From Pseudomonadota bacterium (GTDB lineage Bacteria; Pseudomonadota; Gammaproteobacteria; Acidiferrobacterales; Acidiferrobacteraceae): DNA of 49,502 bases. Below the pieces are notes generated by a model. That model made no database searches. It saw nothing but the letters and a program-made list of their open reading frames with translations, and was not told the DNA's origin. Position numbers and translations under genes: made by a program. Location of the stretch: contig JAJYHM010000058.1 in assembly GCA_021784755.1 (NCBI GenBank), forward strand, positions 1-49,502, in the 5' to 3' direction. Positions 27,532 to 39,474 of the stretch are shown here, in pieces. Position 1 is the stretch's first letter. Every line of letters begins with the position of its first letter.

Positions 27532-27882
27532 CTAGGCGAAGACCAGAATATCCTCGTCTTCCACCACGTACTGACAGGCCAGCCGCCAGAGCGCCGGATG
27601 GGCCGCGATGTCTTGGGCCCGGTATTCGGCGTCTGTGAGCTTGCCCGCTTGATAGAGAACCATCTTTTCGTCCGGGCTTAAGATCACCCGCGCCGCAGCA
27701 CGGCCCCGGTCCCGGTACACGATCTTGACGGCGCAGGCCCCGCAGAGGCCCTGGCCGCAGGTCTTATGGGCAGGCCACGGTATCTCGCGCGCGATCATAA
27801 GCAGCGTCGCGCCATGGCACGGTTCGAGCTTGATCACGCGCTCCACATCGAACGGTGGAGCGATAAACGTCACATTGCCCAT
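27532..27882 (-). CDS. 2Fe-2S ferredoxin within the nif operon
   Basis: 116 residues of beta-grasp ferredoxin type. The cluster motif is CGQGLCGAC (C-x4-C-x2-C) with the fourth Cys near residue 102 (RLACQYVV). It is likely an electron donor dedicated to nitrogenase or to cofactor assembly, because it lies between nifK and nifE with its own GGAGGTGAC ribosome site. The nifK stop is 53 bp before it, and two hairpins occupy that spacer. Which reductase feeds it is unknown. Confidence 0.88.
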   Translation of the reverse strand: MGNVTFIAPPFDVERVIKLEPCHGATLLMIAREIPWPAHKTCGQGLCGACAVKIVYRDRGRAAARVILSPDEKMVLYQAGKLTDAEYRAQDIAAHPALWRLACQYVVEDEDILVFA

Positions 27883-31047: not shown

Positions 31048-31986
<939 letters not shown>

Positions 31987-32083: not shown

Positions 32084-32100
32084 AGCAAATGCCGTGCCAT
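32084..32100 (-). promoter_or_regulatory. Sigma-54 promoter of nifH
   Basis: On the minus strand ATGGCACGGCATTTGCT, a perfect match to TGGCAC-N5-TTGCW with GG and GC at correct spacing. Transcription would start near 32073, about 140 nt before the nifH ATG. Confidence 0.93.
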
Positions 32101-32317: not shown

Positions 32318-32743
32318 ATGCAGATTGGCGTGACAAGCGACGCGGCAGTGGCAAATTTTTGTGTATTCGTCATCTCGGCTTGCGAGATCAAGCGCACGGC
32401 CTTGCAGTTCATGCTGCAGGACGACTATGAGACCCACGAATGGAGCGAACTTGATCAGGCGCTCGGCAGGATGCGCGAACGCCCGCCCGATGTGGCGATC
32501 GTGGATAGGGTCGAGCTTGGGGACGCCGACGCGAGGCTTATGGATCGCATTCGCGAGATAAGCCCTAAGATCCAGGTGGTGGTCCTGGTGGGCTCGATAA
32601 GCGAGCCGGAGGGGGCATGCTGGCTTGCTCAAGGGGCCCACAGCCTCCTACCCCAACCGCTTACGGTGGAGGCCGTGCGCCGCAAGGTGCGACTCGCCTT
32701 AGGATTGCGCGCGGCGATCGGGATAGGAGTGGGGACCAGTTAG
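32318..32743 (+). CDS. Receiver-like protein lacking phosphorylation residues
   Basis: 141 residues with the alternating beta/alpha pattern of a response-regulator receiver domain: CVFVISACEIKRTALQ (beta1/alpha1), PDVAIVDRVE (beta3, with Asp where the phospho-Asp would be), QVVVLVGS (beta4), GAHSLLPQPLTVEAV (beta5). The acidic pair after beta1 is replaced by SACE and the conserved Lys before the last Pro is Gln, so normal phosphorylation is unlikely. No output domain. AAAGGAGG precedes the ATG. It shares the nifH control region and ends 4 nt inside the convergent SIR2-like gene. A protein-binding regulator of nitrogen fixation is a guess. Confidence 0.75.
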   Translation: MQIGVTSDAAVANFCVFVISACEIKRTALQFMLQDDYETHEWSELDQALGRMRERPPDVAIVDRVELGDADARLMDRIREISPKIQVVVLVGSISEPEGACWLAQGAHSLLPQPLTVEAVRRKVRLALGLRAAIGIGVGTS

Positions 32744-33621
32744 TTTAGGACGCGGCCCCAACCATGGGCCGCGCCCGCGAGACCCTGCGGGTATGGGGTG
32801 GCGGCGTCTGCGGCGAGCGCGCGGGTAAAGCTTGCGAGATCTTGAGCGATGGGCGTAATCGACTGCTCGCTGAGGAAACGGGCCTCGTTGCGCGTAAGGG
32901 GATCCGCCAGGACCGCCCAGTGCGGCCCGTGTGAGCGCTTCATGATCTGGCGCGCGAACACGCGTTCGAGCTGGGTCGTGAAGCGGCATCCGAGAAAGAG
33001 AAAGCCGCGGTCTGCACGCAGTTCCTGCACCCGAGCTGGGATCGGGGTCTGGATATCGATCTCTGTCAGGACCTCGACGAAGTCGGAATCCGACACGAGG
33101 AAATTGCACGCCGGATGGATCGCGCCGAGCGGTTCGTAGAGAAGCGTGGCCCAGAGCGCCTCGTCACCTTGCGGCGAGCGCGCGCCATCATACCGGAAAG
33201 AGTGCACCCACGTGCCGTAGTGCTCGGCCTGGCTCACGGCCTGCACAAGCCCCCAGTCGTCGGACCGGCGCTCCAAGGCCTGCCGCAACAAGTCGTCGTA
33301 CCAGACGTGGACTATGAGCGGGAAACCGGGCGCAGCGAGCCACTCGTGCAGGATGTTGGGCGCAGCCTGCACGGCGAAGGCATCCCGCATGAGCGTGTTG
33401 ACGGTCTTTCGGTGCTTGAAGTTTTCTATGAACTGGGCGGCGGCGGTGAGATTTCCGCGGATCTTGTGGGGAACGGCGACCTTGCTCGTAAAACGCAAGA
33501 CCAGATCCTCCGGGGTCGCAGGCAGCGGACAGACCCCGTCGAGGGCGAGCGCGCCCGGACCCACGTAGGGGATGATGTGCCCTGCGGCCAGGGCCGCGCG
33601 CAAGTCGTTCGGTATGATCAT
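32740..33621 (-). CDS. SIR2-like domain protein in the nif cluster
   Basis: 293 residues. The N-terminus IIPYVGPGALAL resembles the GAG-x-S NAD-binding start of SIR2_2-type domains (here G-P-G-A), and the stretch around ILHEWLAAPGFPLIVHVWYDD matches the family's H-x-L...P...T/V-x-N-x-D core with the usual TTNYD replaced by VWYDD. NAD binding or hydrolysis is therefore possible but the active site diverges. AAGGAG precedes the ATG at 33621. It is the last gene of the nifB operon, after the DegT-like gene, and converges with the pseudo-receiver. Confidence 0.65.
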   Translation of the reverse strand: MIIPNDLRAALAAGHIIPYVGPGALALDGVCPLPATPEDLVLRFTSKVAVPHKIRGNLTAAAQFIENFKHRKTVNTLMRDAFAVQAAPNILHEWLAAPGFPLIVHVWYDDLLRQALERRSDDWGLVQAVSQAEHYGTWVHSFRYDGARSPQGDEALWATLLYEPLGAIHPACNFLVSDSDFVEVLTEIDIQTPIPARVQELRADRGFLFLGCRFTTQLERVFARQIMKRSHGPHWAVLADPLTRNEARFLSEQSITPIAQDLASFTRALAADAATPYPQGLAGAAHGWGRVLN

Positions 33622-33689
33622 GACAGAAGACTCCTTTTCATCATTGAACGCAGGGACTGCAGGCCTTGTTCGCCGTATTTGCCGCCCCT

Positions 33690-34802
33690 CTAGAGATAGA
33701 TCGCAGACCCCGCGCCGACATTAATCGAGGCGTCCTTCAGGGACTCGACGATCCGCGCGATGTCTTCCTCGGCAAGCCCGGCATGGAACGGGAGGACGAT
33801 CCCGCGATCGGCGATTTTGTCGGTCAATCCGCAACCGGCCCCCGAAAACCCTCTGCGCCGGCACTCCTCATCGCGATAAAGGGGTATGGCATATGCTCGC
33901 GCCTCTATGCCGCCTTCGCACAGATCGTCGACAATGGCGTCGCGCGCATGCCGGCTGAAGCGCGCGCCCAAATGGACGAGAAAGGTAAACGTGTGGTGGG
34001 CGCTTACCCGGGGCCCGGTGTAGGGGTCTTTAATGCCCTCGAAGGAGCGGATGGTGCGCCCGTAGAGCGCCGCGACCGAAGCACGTGCGGCCAGGGTGTC
34101 CTCCAGGCGCTCCCACTGCGCATCCAGCAAGGCCGCCGTGGAGGCGCTCATGGCATCGGCCCGGGGAGCTGCTTTCACCTGCTGGTCCAAGGCCTGCGCG
34201 AGTCGCGCATCATCGGTCAAGACGAGCGCCCCCGCGCCGGCCGCGACCGGGCCCCGTGTCTGGAAATCGAGCAAGCTCACGTCACCAAAACAGCCGACCG
34301 GCCTTCCCTGGTACGTGGACCCGATAGCCTCCGTCGAATCCTCAATGAGGATGAGATCGTGGTGTAGGCGCAGCTCCTCGAAGGCCGTCCAATCGGCGGG
34401 GTGGCCATTGGTATTACCGACCAGGAGGGCGCGCGTGGCGGGCCCGATTCTGGCAGCGGCCTTTTCGGGATTGAGCGTGCCGGACCAATAATCGATGTCG
34501 GCGAATACCGGTGTCGCCCCCGCCCGCCACACCGCGCGGGCGATCTCGTGCCAGGAATAGGCCGAGACCACGACCTCGTCGCCGGGCCCAAGCCCGTAGG
34601 CCTCGAGGACACGCTGAAGACCGCCTGTGGCGCTTGCGCAAGCCACGGCGTGGCGCCTTGCAAGCTGCGTGGCGACACGCGCCTCGAAGGCCGATATGAT
34701 CGTCGCCTGCACAGCCGGACTTGCCTGTTCCGCCGCCCGCATGCGCTCGCGATCGGCGGCGGCGACGTCCCAAACTTCAGCCCGGATCTTGGGGTCGCTC
34801 AT
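33690..34802 (-). CDS. DegT/DnrJ/EryC1/StrS-fold protein without Schiff-base lysine
   Basis: About 370 residues of the fold-type I PLP family used for sugar aminotransferases. Conserved parts include ACASATGGLQRVL, GDEVVVSAYSW, and IEDSTEAIGSTYQGRPVGCFGD (Asp that contacts the pyridine N). Where the PLP lysine belongs (SFxxTK then GEGG) the sequence reads LLDFQTRGPVAAGAGALV: no lysine is present in that segment. Transamination is therefore unlikely. ATG at 34802 follows the preceding stop at once; GTG at 34808 is an alternative. Operon position after nifT suggests a nif accessory role; none is known to me. Confidence 0.75.
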   Translation of the reverse strand: MSDPKIRAEVWDVAAADRERMRAAEQASPAVQATIISAFEARVATQLARRHAVACASATGGLQRVLEAYGLGPGDEVVVSAYSWHEIARAVWRAGATPVFADIDYWSGTLNPEKAAARIGPATRALLVGNTNGHPADWTAFEELRLHHDLILIEDSTEAIGSTYQGRPVGCFGDVSLLDFQTRGPVAAGAGALVLTDDARLAQALDQQVKAAPRADAMSASTAALLDAQWERLEDTLAARASVAALYGRTIRSFEGIKDPYTGPRVSAHHTFTFLVHLGARFSRHARDAIVDDLCEGGIEARAYAIPLYRDEECRRRGFSGAGCGLTDKIADRGIVLPFHAGLAEEDIARIVESLKDASINVGAGSAIYL

Positions 34803-34804
34803 AC

Positions 34805-35056
34805 TCACTCGCGCACGGCTATGAGCAGACCGGTGGCCGCGGCCAGATCAGGCGTCACCGCCACGCAATGGTCGCGCCCATCCACGAGGTAGACATCGGC
34901 CGTAGGGGTGACCCGAAACGGCTGGCGTCCGACCATATCCACGGCATCGCAACGCACAAAGGCAAGCTCCGGGAACTCACGCCGTAGGACTGAAAGAGCC
35001 GGGCCTGAGTCGGCGTCGAGGAAACCTTGCAGGCGGCGCCAATCGGATTCCCTCAT
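34805..35056 (-). CDS. Small nif-associated protein (DUF6129-like)
   Basis: 83 residues with no enzymatic motif: a helical N-terminus (ESDWRRLQGFLD) and a C-terminal beta-rich part (TADVYLVDGRDHCVAVTPDLAAA). Small proteins of this sort occur beside nifT/nifS in some nif clusters; assignment to DUF6129 is from memory and tentative. ATG at 35056 is 4 nt after the nifT stop, so it is translated with nifT. Confidence 0.6.
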   Translation of the reverse strand: MRESDWRRLQGFLDADSGPALSVLRREFPELAFVRCDAVDMVGRQPFRVTPTADVYLVDGRDHCVAVTPDLAAATGLLIAVRE

Positions 35057-35060
35057 GGCT

Positions 35061-35273
35061 TCATGCCTCCGCAATCCGCCGCGCATCGACTGTGATCGGC
35101 AAGGCCGTCTCCACCGCCAACGCGGGCAACTCCAGCTGCCAGCCGTTGGCAAGCGTAACGCGGCCGCCCCACATGGCCGGCTGCTCCATGGCCACGATCG
35201 GTTCCTCCAGATCCTTCTTCGCGACATAGACCGACAACACACCCTCGCGATTTCTGCGTATCATCACCTTCAT
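35061..35273 (-). CDS. nifT: NifT/FixU protein
   Basis: 70-residue beta-rich protein, normal for the family: MKVMIRRNREGVLSVYVAKKDLEE at the start and WGGRVTLANGWQLELP in the centre are the NifT hallmark segments. Function is unresolved; mutants have weak phenotypes in other diazotrophs. GGGGGATGG lies before the ATG. It follows nifS by 29 bp. Confidence 0.92.
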   Translation of the reverse strand: MKVMIRRNREGVLSVYVAKKDLEEPIVAMEQPAMWGGRVTLANGWQLELPALAVETALPITVDARRIAEA

Positions 35274-35302: not shown

Positions 35303-36460
35303 TTAAGCCGCGCGCGCGGCCACCTCGCCCAGGATCTCAGGAAGTAGGGCCAAGACCCGTCCCACGCACGCCTCACTGTTGTAACGCCCGAACGAAAACC
35401 GGATCGCGCCCAGGGCCACGCGCCGATCGACCCCCATGGCCGTCAGCACATGCGACGGATCCATCCCGCCGGCGGCGCATGCCGCCCCCAGAGAGACTGC
35501 CACGCCTCGGCGATCAAGGGCCGCCATGATCCGCTCACCGTCCAAAGTCCCGAAACTGATGTTGCTGGTATTGGGCAGCCGCGGCGCTTGCACCCCATGG
35601 ATCCGCGCCGCCGGGAAGCGCTCAACGATGCCGCGCTCAAGATCGGCCCGCAGCCTGCCTATGCGGAGGGCCTCCACCTCCAGATCCTCCTGGGCGAGGG
35701 CGCAGGCGCTCCCGAAGCCCACGATGGCCGGAAGATTCTCGGTGCCGCCACGCATCCTGTGCTCCTGGTGGCCCCAAAGCAGGGGCGCGATCCTGAAGGC
35801 CTTACGCACAAACAACGCGGCCGCCCCCGGCGGCGCATGCAGCTTGTGGCCAGAGAGGGACAGCATCTCGATGGGCAGCTGCTCAAGGTCAATCGGTATC
35901 CTGCCGGCCGCCTGCACGGCATCCACGTGGAGCGGCACAGCCAAGGCGTGCGTCGTCTCCGCGATCTCGGGGATCGGAAAGAGCACGCCGGTCTCGTTAT
36001 TGGCCCACATGAGCGTCACAAGCGCGGTATCCTGAGTGATGGCGTCCCGCACCGCGCCCACGGCCAGCCGCCCTTCGCTGTCGACAGGCAGATAGGTCAC
36101 GGCTATGCCCGTCTCCTCCAGATGACGCAACAACATCAGGGTCGAGGGGTGCTCGACGGCACTTGCGACGATATGCCTGCGGCCTGCGCGTGCGGCCAGC
36201 GTCCCCAAAATCGCTGTGTGGTTCGCCTCGGTCCCCGAACTCGTGAAAACGATCTCTTGGGGTCGCGCGCCCACAAGCCCCGCCACCTCGGCGCGCGCCT
36301 CGTGCAGGAGACCCTTTGCGCGCATGCCCGCGGCGTGCGCGCTCGACGGGTTGCCGATACCCGATCGCAGACAGGCAAGCATCGCCTCCAGGCACTCGCG
36401 CGCCACGACCCCGGTCGCGTTGTTATCGAGATAGACATGGGCCGCGCCCTTTTCGCTCAT
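35303..36460 (-). CDS. nifS: Cysteine desulfurase NifS
   Basis: PLP enzyme that mobilises sulfur from cysteine for nitrogenase clusters. The 385 residues have YLDNNATG at the start, the PLP lysine in SLSGHKLHAPPG, and the persulfide Cys in SLGAACAAGG. Length is normal. Location between nifZ and nifT identifies NifS rather than IscS. There is no nifU in the window, so the A-type carriers at 36850 and 39475 may be its partners. Confidence 0.95.
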   Translation of the reverse strand: MSEKGAAHVYLDNNATGVVARECLEAMLACLRSGIGNPSSAHAAGMRAKGLLHEARAEVAGLVGARPQEIVFTSSGTEANHTAILGTLAARAGRRHIVASAVEHPSTLMLLRHLEETGIAVTYLPVDSEGRLAVGAVRDAITQDTALVTLMWANNETGVLFPIPEIAETTHALAVPLHVDAVQAAGRIPIDLEQLPIEMLSLSGHKLHAPPGAAALFVRKAFRIAPLLWGHQEHRMRGGTENLPAIVGFGSACALAQEDLEVEALRIGRLRADLERGIVERFPAARIHGVQAPRLPNTSNISFGTLDGERIMAALDRRGVAVSLGAACAAGGMDPSHVLTAMGVDRRVALGAIRFSFGRYNSEACVGRVLALLPEILGEVAARAA

Positions 36461-36507: not shown

Positions 36508-36804
36508 TCAACACCCCGGGTCGGACCCGTCGGCCGGTGCGGCGCTCTCGAGTTCCCGCCCCTTCATGCCCACGCGATAGCCGTTGGCCACGAAGTCCAC
36601 GCCGTAGATATAGAACTGCTGCAAAAATGTTCCGATGCTCGTCACGTAGCCCTCATCGCCCTTTTTCACGAGGACGTCCCCTATGTCCTTACCGGGAAAG
36701 GTCCCGTCATTGCGCACGGTCTTGCGCGATCGGACCTTCTCCCCGTAATCGAATCGCGGCGGCCCGTTCAATTCGACCGTGTCGCGATCTCTGTTGATCT
36801 TCAT
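36508..36804 (-). CDS. nifZ: NifZ protein, short form
   Basis: 98 residues. The NifZ core is seen in PPRFDYGEKVRSRKTVRNDGT, GKDIGDVLVKKGDEGYV and the segment ending FLQQFYIYGVDF. NifZ assists P-cluster maturation of the second half of MoFe protein. It is shorter than many NifZ proteins, lacking the C-terminal extension. GAGGAGGG precedes the ATG. It is 48 bp after nifS on the map and in the same operon. Confidence 0.9.
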   Translation of the reverse strand: MKINRDRDTVELNGPPRFDYGEKVRSRKTVRNDGTFPGKDIGDVLVKKGDEGYVTSIGTFLQQFYIYGVDFVANGYRVGMKGRELESAAPADGSDPGC

Positions 36805-36849: not shown

Positions 36850-37212
36850 CTAGGACCGGCGCTTGAGGGCGCTTATGTCGACTACGGCCGCGCCGGCGCT
36901 GGCGCCCGAACAGCCGCATCCGCTGCCTTTCGGATCCATTACCGTGAAGCCAGACGAATGGGCCGCGTCGGAGAAGTCCAGAGTGCAGCGCTCGAGGAGC
37001 GCCTGGGTCGCAGGCGGCATGTGGAGTGTGACGTCCTCGTACTGCATCGTTACGTCGCCCACGCGCGCCGCCGCCTCCACAGAGAATTCGACGCCCATGC
37101 CGGAACATCCTCCGGGGCTTGCGAGCAGACGAAAGCCGTGCGCCGGGTTGCCGCTCATACGCAACATGCGGCGCATAAACTTGAGAGCTGATGGTGTGAT
37201 CGTCATGCACAT
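36850..37212 (-). CDS. Nif-type IscA/HesB Fe-S carrier
   Basis: 120 residues of A-type carrier fold: ITPSALKFMRRML, then GGCSGMG with the first ligand Cys, and near the C-terminus GSGCGCSG with the CxC pair; these three cysteines bind the transferred cluster. Its place between fdxN and nifZ indicates the nif-specific IscA that delivers 4Fe-4S units to NifB or nitrogenase. ATG at 37212 or ATG at 37206 (two codons later) could be the start. A second A-type gene lies across the nifB promoter. Confidence 0.88.
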   Translation of the reverse strand: MCMTITPSALKFMRRMLRMSGNPAHGFRLLASPGGCSGMGVEFSVEAAARVGDVTMQYEDVTLHMPPATQALLERCTLDFSDAAHSSGFTVMDPKGSGCGCSGASAGAAVVDISALKRRS

Positions 37213-37222
37213 AGGCGCGCCC

Positions 37223-37441
37223 TTAAGCCTGGTAGCGTGCGACGCTTGTGTCGATCACGCAGGTGTTCTCGACTGGACACACGGCAACACACTGGGGGTC
37301 ATCGAAATACCCTATGCATTCCGTGCACTTTTCGGGCTTTATGATGTACGTTCCGTCCTTCTCGCGGATGGCGTTGTTGGGACATTCCGGCTCGCAGGCC
37401 GAGCACGCGGTGCACTGCGAGCCTATGATCTTGTATGGCAT
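37223..37441 (-). CDS. fdxN: 2x[4Fe-4S] ferredoxin FdxN-type
   Basis: 72-residue bacterial ferredoxin. [12 protein letters not shown] and [18 protein letters not shown] form the two cluster motifs; the second has the longer spacing typical for nif-linked ferredoxins. GAAGGAGAT precedes the ATG at 37441; a frame to 37474 is rejected. It directly follows nifB, as fdxN usually does, and should feed electrons to NifB or to nitrogenase. Confidence 0.92.
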
Positions 37442-37479
37442 GGGTATCTCCTTCGGTTTTCGATAGCGTCGCACGGGAC

Positions 37480-39033
37480 TTAGGCGGCGACGTAAGCCCC
37501 TTGGCGAATCGCCGCATCACCCTTTAGCGCGTGCGTGATCTCGCCCTTCTCCACTCGGTCGACATAGCCCTTGTAGTAGGCCAGTACCGCCGCGTCGATG
37601 AACTCGTGAGCACAGGAGTCGACCGGCTCTATTCCGGCCTCCTTCAACGAAGCCCGCGGGCAGCCGCCGATCTTGGCCACCAGGACCGCGGTGCAATCAT
37701 TCAGGGCCCGGATAATGGTCGGTAAGGCATCTTCCTCCCCGTAACCACCCTGGCAGTAAAGATCGACACGCCTATGACCCACGAATTTCGCGCCACCGGC
37801 GCCGGCCTCATAGATCTGGAATTCCTTGGCGTGCCCAAAGTGCTCGTTCACGCGCCCCTCGCCCTTGGTGGCAACGGCCACCAGAATGGCGATGTCGGAC
37901 TGGCGCTCGCGCAGCCCCTCGAGCCAGGCCCCCTTGGCGGCCGCCTTTTCTTGTCTTTGATCCTCCACGGTCGCTTGGTAGGCGCGGCGCGCTGCGCCAT
38001 CGTAGGAAAGCGCCATCTCCATCACCTTCTCGGTGGTAAATTCCGCAGAGCGATCCTCGCCCAAAAGTCCCACGGCATCGGCACGGCATTGCCGGCAATG
38101 CCGCATCATGTTCATCTGCCCCTCACAACGATCCTGCAGGGCCTTCAGTTCCTGGGCGGTAGGGCCGCGCTGCCCGTTTAGACCGAACACCGTTCCGTGC
38201 TCCGGCGCCGAGATGAGGGGCATAATGTTGTGCAGGAAGGCGCCCCGTGACTTCACGGCCTTATTGACGTCGACTAAGTGCTGATCATTGATCCCCGGGA
38301 TCATGACCGAATTGACCTTGCAGAGGATGCCGCGCTCGGTGAGCATCTCGAGGCCCTGCATCTGACGCTCATGAAGGATCTGCGCGGCCTCGCGTCCGGT
38401 GTAGCGTTTGTGCCGATAGTAGATCCACGGGTAGATTCTGGCGCCCACCTCCAGATCAACCATATTTATCGTGATCGTCACGTGATCGACGTTGAGATCC
38501 TTGATCCGGTCGACATAGTCGGGTAAGGCAAGCCCGTTCGTGGACAGGCAGAGCTTTATGTCCGGGGCCTCGCGGGCTATGAGCTCGAATGTCTTGAAGG
38601 TCTTTTCCGGATTCGCCAATGGGTCCCCTGGTCCTGCGATTCCAAGAACCGTCATCTGCGGTATGGCGCTTGCCACTGCCAAGGTCTTACGAGCAGCCTG
38701 TTCAGGCGTCAATCGCTCGCTGACGACGCCGGGGCGAGATTCGTTGGCGCAGTCATATTTCCGGTTACAGTAGTTGCATTGGATGTTGCAAGCAGGTGCC
38801 ACAGCCACATGCATGCGCGCGTAGTGGTGGTGAGCCTCTTCGCTGTAACAAGGGTGATTCTTGACTTTTTCCCATACGCCCTGGGCCATGTCCTCGGGCG
38901 CCATGGACGAGCCGCAGCCGGCCTTGCCGGACCCACCCGAGGCGCCGCAACCCTTATGCTCGGAGACCGCAACGGCTACGCCCTCCAAAGAGTCTTGCGG
39001 CCTGGCCGTATCCGAAATGTCTTTTGATTCCAT
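37480..39033 (-). CDS. nifB: FeMo-cofactor biosynthesis protein NifB
   Basis: Radical-SAM enzyme that builds NifB-co, inserting the central carbide. The 517 residues comprise an N-terminal Cys/Gly-rich lead, the radical-SAM domain with ACNIQCNYC (C-x3-C-x2-C), and a C-terminal NifX-like domain ([13 protein letters not shown]) after about residue 390. This is the two-domain form. ATG at 39033 has AGAGGAATC upstream; the upstream extension to 39090 is rejected. It leads the operon nifB to SIR2-like and has a sigma-54 promoter. Confidence 0.97.
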
Positions 39034-39101
39034 GGAACGATTCCTCTGCCAGTGAAAGAACCGCCGCCTGTGCGGTGGCGCATTATTCACATCGGTCCTT
39101 C

Positions 39102-39118
39102 AGCAAACGCCGTGCCAG
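39102..39118 (-). promoter_or_regulatory. Sigma-54 promoter of nifB
   Basis: Minus strand CTGGCACGGCGTTTGCT, a perfect TGGCAC-N5-TTGCT. Expected start near 39091, about 58 nt before the nifB ATG. Only three bases differ from the nifH element. Confidence 0.92.
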
Positions 39119-39364: not shown

Positions 39365-39474
39365 CTTTATACGAACTGAGACTCGCGCCCTTCCAGGGAG
39401 ACGGATGGGTTGTTCGCCGGGTGACACGAAAGATTCGCGTTGTGCCCCCGCGGTCAAAAAACGGAGGTGAAAAC

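Follow-up and report, generated by a model that had tools for sequence, protein, structure and literature searches.

Sirtuin-like genes linked to nitrogen fixation (nif) genes have been noted several times. In M. loti, msi351, described as “prokaryotic sirtuin-like”, follows fixU (nifT) under a NifA promoter; an insertion in msi351 left the symbiosis with Lotus fully effective, a fixU mutant was partly effective and only slightly affected, and nifT of K. pneumoniae is reported to have given no obvious phenotype (PMC3538637). Two papers on Z. mobilis state that ZMO1821 is upregulated under N2 fixation and guess that it is a deacetylase (PMC8594446, PMC8600466), and, in R. capsulatus, a nifA double mutant had no detectable Rcc03262, which shows NifA control of this gene (PMC6925177). 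In P. stutzeri, PST1325 (pnfA), later annotated as SIR2 family, is NifA/sigma-54-dependent and divergent from nifH, and its relative in A. vinelandii is AvoP; at 0.5% O2, nitrogenase activity in a non-polar pnfA mutant fell to 23%, the level of nifH mRNA did not change, and the mutant could no longer fix nitrogen with the support of nitrate (PMC2820453, PMC11332353).

The locus analyzed here belongs to an Acidiferrobacteraceae bacterium with a 73-contig draft genome, 85.65% complete, and lies on a stretch of 49,502 nucleotides from one contig (hereafter, the window). The feature of interest is real, widespread, conserved and known in part before, and the NAD or ADP-ribose reading attached to it in a preliminary description is unsupported. 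All genes of the operon are on the minus strand, with short gaps or overlaps, in the order nifB (37480..39090), fdxN ferredoxin (37223..37474), an iscA-type Fe-S carrier (36850..37212; PF01521, E 1e-7; TIGR00049), nifZ (36508..36804; PF04319, E 5e-33), nifS (35303..36460; PF00266, E 7e-69; TIGR03402 at 457 bits, below the cut-off of 531), nifT of the MWGG/NGW subtype (35061..35273; PF06988, E 8e-31; subtype assigned by subtype analysis), a small DUF6129-like protein (34805..35056; PF19624, E 6e-4, under the gathering score), a DegT/DnrJ/EryC1/StrS-fold protein without the catalytic lysine (33690..34808, with the likely start at ATG 34802 and a GTG at 34808) and, as the last gene, a SIR2-fold protein of 293 amino acids (32740..33621) that starts 68 bp past the DegT stop. 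This order confirms the earlier placement of the last two genes in series with nifB, separated by short gaps. The claim that neither belongs to the nif set proved wrong, as both are regular constituents of the clusters of one nif lineage.

Immediately upstream of nifB is a perfect -24/-12 sigma-54 promoter, TGGCACGGCGTTTGC (39103..39117, minus strand). The only other perfect site (TGGCAC-N5-TTGC) in the window, at 32085-32099, lies just 5' of nifH (31048..31980, minus strand), the product of which contains the GCAGRGV arginine motif; sites with one mismatch number 6 against 3.8 expected, that is, not above chance. A possible NifA site, TGT-N10-ACA, is present 5' of nifB (39411..39426, plus strand) but is weak taken alone, given that there are 8 such sites in the window against 4.3 expected.

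Searching species-level genomes with a profile of the SIR2-like protein yielded at least 545 relatives, and all counts over 80 loci given here refer to the best 80 of these. Hundreds of Alpha-, Beta- and Gammaproteobacteria and Acidobacteria carry the gene within their nif clusters; the best 80 of at least 545 include Rhodopseudomonas, Methylocystis, Methylocella, Beijerinckia, Hyphomicrobium, Methylococcaceae and Acidobacteria as well as Methylophilaceae, Thiobacillus, Sulfuriferula, Aromatoleum and others, and the nearest named relative locus among the matches listed is labelled Acidiferrobacter. Restriction to a single strain, an outcome that would have spoken against a functional system, was thus not seen. 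Among these best 80 loci, nifB is found near the SIR2-like gene in 72, fdxN is likewise conserved in 72, and the DUF6129-like gene in 65. The eight loci without nifB comprise two with nifH and nifD, five on short contigs with other operon genes only, and one of 7 kb (L088) with no marker.

The gene also occurs on plasmids: in R. etli CFN42 and Mesorhizobium, the symbiotic plasmids carry nifA-nifB-fdxN-nifZ-nifT-SIR2, and plasmids of Methylococcus and Paraburkholderia carry nifB followed, further on, by nifS-nifT-hypothetical-DegT-SIR2. On the Methylococcus plasmid, but not on that of Paraburkholderia, a 2Fe-2S ferredoxin and a 93-amino-acid hypothetical protein are inserted between DegT and SIR2 (L140:14362-14989). 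Neither is present in the window; relatives of the two occur near the SIR2-like gene in 42/80 and 39/80, respectively, of the best 80 loci.

Co-inheritance with nitrogenase was quantified in 398 genomes of the phylum, with a family threshold of E <1e-12. NifD is present in 14 of the 16 carriers of the SIR2-like gene (the window genome apart) compared to 26 of the 381 other genomes (Fisher p 1e-13). Of the two exceptions, G293 has the gene in a nifA-nifB-fdxN-nifZ-SIR2 cluster with no nifH in the draft, and G108 has a gene of the sister branch discussed below, with nif absent nearby. In the NifD tree, all 14 genomes with a nifT-linked SIR2-like gene fall inside one 19-row group, and the distribution of the gene requires 4 changes, compared to 12.2 when labels are shuffled. 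Among the five genomes of this group that lack the gene, G075 retains a decayed remnant adjoining nifT.

In 74 of the best 80 (of at least 545) loci, nifT precedes the SIR2-like gene in the same orientation; in 73 of these 74, NifT bears the NGW signature. Where DegT is absent, the gap between nifT and the SIR2-like gene ranges from 31 to about 1,090 bp. In most genomes that lack the SIR2-like gene, and in all those with a PnfA-type gene, NifT displays a WGG...DG pattern instead, often near nifK; the genomes lacking the gene that depart from this pattern are G075, with its remnant, and G331. In G240 and G167, nifT and the SIR2-like gene are adjacent (80 and 62 bp), with DegT 4-5 kb away. G240 also contains a second, broken nifT-SIR2 pair (L197:1186-1760), as if both had been duplicated together. 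The association supports a physical link between the two proteins but does not prove it, because both follow the same nif lineage, and shared ancestry, not contact, may be what lies behind it. Decades after its recognition, NifT is not known to have a function.

These features place the window gene next to the described genes. Like the Msi351-type family, it lies 3' of nifT in the nifB operon and encodes the invariant block described below. ZMO1821, Rcc03262 and msi351, all sirtuin-like genes linked to nif, are likely its orthologues (msi351 by position and description); the sequences aligned here were those of the R. etli and Mesorhizobium plasmids. In Mesorhizobium and R. etli, unlike the window, no DegT gene is present at this place. 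The preliminary description considered the system undescribed, which does not hold for the SIR2-like gene, already noted and even knocked out (PMC3538637, PMC6925177, PMC8600466); the accessible parts of these accounts mention neither the loss of catalytic residues nor a DegT partner. As far as the searched literature goes, the loss of the catalytic residues, the invariant loop with its predicted flexibility, the DegT protein that is specific to nif and lacks the lysine, and the link to a NifT subtype appear to be unreported. Full-text searches, which covered mostly papers outside subscription, gave no account of the nif DegT gene.

The relationship to PnfA is more distant. For PnfA-like loci chosen by their matching layout, rather than for PST1325 itself, the alignment with the window family is full-length (hhalign probability 99.8, E 2e-29, 268 columns, 25% identity); in G018 and G404, these genes are divergent from nifH, as is pnfA, whereas the window gene is at the end of the nifB operon. 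The PnfA-like proteins differ in keeping the catalytic Asn (in DINRD), and their genomes occupy the opposite part of the NifD tree; the catalytic His is absent in these proteins too. PnfA is likely a sister family of the nifT-linked SIR2 family. No PnfA-type gene was found in the plasmid collection, and a search of the PnfA-type profile against solved structures returned nothing usable. PnfA-type genes are present in two drafts, G108 (L155:10245) and G030 (L038:255-1115), with no nifH match, which could mean either loss of nif or a role independent of nif.

The assignment of the window protein to the SIR2 fold, already made in the preliminary description, is borne out by the Pfam profile (PF13289, SIR2_2; E 5e-17; 62.8 bits vs a cut-off of 24.5) and by a confident AlphaFold model (pLDDT 89, pTM 0.88), for which Foldseek finds KomC, ThsA and DSR2 (TM about 0.6, best E 3e-10). 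The resemblance to these SIR2 NADases is limited to the fold: the window protein has no effector domain, is encoded in a nif operon, and has neither the Asn of TTNYD nor the His of KLHG. The profile alignment to ThsA places Trp107 (codon 33301..33303, minus strand) on the catalytic Asn, and this position is Trp in 80/80 of the best 80 of at least 545 homologues; the ThsA entry 8bto, which has Ala aligned with Trp107, is the catalytic N112A mutant. The catalytic His appears to be replaced by Leu, given that KLHG is aligned with xPLG in the SeThsA profile, in a stretch that aligns weakly. The GAGxS motif is altered; a GPG-type loop is retained (Pro22 in 68/80 and Gly23 in 64/80 of the best 80), and GCRF at residues 211-214 is almost invariant in the same homologues. 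Invariant residues include W107-Y108-D109, H134, D178, D180, E183, E187, D189, C212, K228 and R229. In the SDSDFVEVLTEIDIQTPIP block (residues 177-195; 33037..33093, minus strand), nearly every position is invariant, and residues 185-190 within it have pLDDT <50 in the model. An invariant loop predicted with such low confidence may be a binding loop that becomes ordered on contact.

The reading that we favor, tentatively and at somewhat less than even confidence, sees in the SIR2-like protein an accessory factor linked to NifT, which would have no catalytic role, act post-transcriptionally and be needed only under certain conditions; DegT would serve as a second scaffold that is dispensable. 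Under NifA/sigma-54 control, the operon would produce an accessory protein of one nitrogenase lineage that kept the SIR2 fold, lost the NAD-cutting chemistry, and would act as a binding or assembly factor after transcription, a role that we carry over by analogy from PnfA. Its partner would be NifT, and the invariant flexible loop, together with the charged invariant surface, might bind a nitrogenase component or an assembly intermediate; the outcome would be a nitrogenase kept working under, for example, microaerobic growth. The data establish the operon, the restriction to a lineage, the fold, the missing catalytic residues, the linkage to nifT and the repeated disappearance of DegT; physical contact with NifT or nitrogenase is our inference. 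The M. loti knockout argues against a strong role, msi351 (an orthologue by position and description) being dispensable in symbiosis. The mild effect of the fixU mutation in M. loti, the lack of an obvious nifT phenotype in K. pneumoniae and the low identity with PnfA, about 25%, also count against this reading. Oxygen in nodules is low and buffered, and the knockout may therefore be compatible with a function in free-living cells under microaerobic conditions.

The main rival to the accessory-factor reading is a ligand sensor: the protein would hold NAD(H), ADP-ribose or a different nucleotide uncleaved, and its bound state would tune nitrogenase, or the assembly of nitrogenase, to redox or energy status. 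The retained nucleotide-binding fold, with its GPG-type loop and near-invariant GCRF, is consistent with such a function, and the nearest fold matches are SIR2 domains that bind NAD; the altered GAGxS motif and the invariant Trp in place of the catalytic Asn argue against it, and we regard a sensor as possible, with a minor but substantial chance of being correct. A bolder combination, in which NifT, the dead sirtuin and the lysine-less DegT form a complex of inactivated enzymes, with a nucleotide or cofactor as the signal sensed and the invariant flexible loop as the docking site for nitrogenase or its assembly machinery, seems rather unlikely, but, if true, would give NifT a defined role. 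An enzyme activity of a new kind would account for the invariant polar residues just as well: the unusually large set, including W107-Y108-D109, H134 and D178, might support new chemistry in a remodelled SIR2 pocket. The neighboring genes suggest no substrate, however, and msi351, identified by position and description, is dispensable in nodules, so that we find this explanation unlikely.

The DegT-like protein shows a parallel loss. Its family membership is clear (PF01041, E 1e-60; 203 bits vs a cut-off of 19.8), and its model (pLDDT 91) matches GDP-perosamine synthase over the whole fold (TM 0.87, 28% identity), with the PLP-contacting Asp157 retained. Unlike the sugar aminotransferases, in the nif DegT, the catalytic Lys is replaced, mostly by Gly or Ser, Asp181 is invariant where the aminotransferases have a Ser, five positions ahead of the Lys, and the C-terminal tail is KDASxNVGAG. 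Gly186 of the window protein (codon 34251..34253, minus strand) aligns with Lys186 of GDP-perosamine synthase. In the dehydratase branch of the DegT family, this position is occupied by His, which the window protein lacks as well. Among 55 homologues, the position is Gly in 27, Ser in 24, Ala in 2, Cys in 1 and Leu in 1, and Lys in none, in full agreement with the initial description of the fold as lysine-less. With the folds retained and the catalytic residues lost, both proteins look like repurposed enzyme folds and are probably nitrogenase helpers rather than NAD enzymes.

Whether the two proteins form an obligate two-component module can be judged from their distribution. The close family of the nif DegT turned up solely in nif context, and, among the 398 genomes, all 6 carriers (E <1e-80), the window genome included, also have the SIR2-like gene and NifD; furthermore, the distance matrices of the two proteins correlate (r 0.71). 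The reverse does not hold: of the 73 loci in which the sequence extends far enough upstream, 19 have no DegT. The gene is cut short in G003, carries a frameshift in G034 and is gone from G013 and G021, with the SIR2-like gene intact in all four genomes, and it is likewise lacking in Rhodopseudomonas, Rhizobium, Mesorhizobium and Acidobacteria loci. Together with the separation of the genes in G240 and G167, this weakens the notion of an obligate pair, which we consider quite unlikely. DegT is optional and often lost where SIR2 stays; in the accessory-factor scheme, it would be a second scaffold of mostly free-living lineages that perhaps holds PMP or another ligand. In G021, nifS is present in short fragments only (L037:8779-8932), an indication that nifS, too, can decay in this operon.

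An active NAD-dependent enzyme, be it a deacetylase, as assumed for ZMO1821 in PMC8600466, an NADase, or a remover of ADP-ribose from NifH, as suggested initially, is very unlikely. The family name and fold, and the acetylated nif proteins of Z. mobilis, are in its favor; both catalytic residues are replaced, with Trp for Asn in 80/80 of the best 80 of at least 545 homologues and Leu for His, and the proposed NAD chemistry is not supported. The preliminary description was correct in that the window contains no draT or draG: the draft genome gave no match to DraT, and its single ADP-ribosylglycohydrolase is on a different contig. Elsewhere, 10 of the best 80 SIR2 loci contain complete draT-draG pairs, as do two further relatives, G020 and G021 (12 loci altogether), and the pairs are placed between SIR2 and nifH wherever the layout is readable; in genomes of the same genus that carry the SIR2-like gene, DraT had no match. 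Because both systems coexist in these 12 loci, the SIR2-like gene is no stand-in for draT/draG; it neither substitutes for nor depends on DraT/DraG, and removal of ADP-ribose from NifH is not supported. Neither PF07357 nor PF03747 matched the SIR2-like or the DegT-like protein. The replacement of DraTG was considered as a candidate and rejected after the DraT/DraG search, with draT-draG beside SIR2 elsewhere. That a phage-defence SIR2 gene drifted by chance into a nif island, as the defence NADases among the nearest solved structures and a weak ThsA match (E 0.0014, the only PADLOC result) might hint, is refuted for practical purposes by the nifB operon position conserved across phyla, the co-inheritance with NifD and the replaced catalytic residues.

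Hundreds of nif clusters encode, 3' of nifT, a family inherited with one NifT subtype, and the function of NifT thereby becomes a testable question about a protein pair. The label “SIR2 family deacetylase” in nif islands, which already motivated acetylome work in Z. mobilis, is probably wrong, and the results point to genes that may be required additions in the transfer of nif clusters into new hosts.

Two further genes of the window deserve mention. Convergent with the SIR2-like gene and divergent from nifH is a receiver-like gene (32318..32743, plus strand; PF00072 at 29.1 bits, below the cut-off of 30.2), which recurs at the same place in 25 of the best 80 of at least 545 loci. The phospho-accepting position is Asp in 3 of the 36 copies and Gly in 21, and, with so few copies keeping the Asp, the gene looks like a nif-specific pseudo-receiver; we regard it as associated with the locus and do not claim it as part of a module. 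Between nifK and nifE, an open reading frame for a 2Fe-2S-type ferredoxin (27532-27882, minus strand) shows 75-87% identity in the closest relatives.
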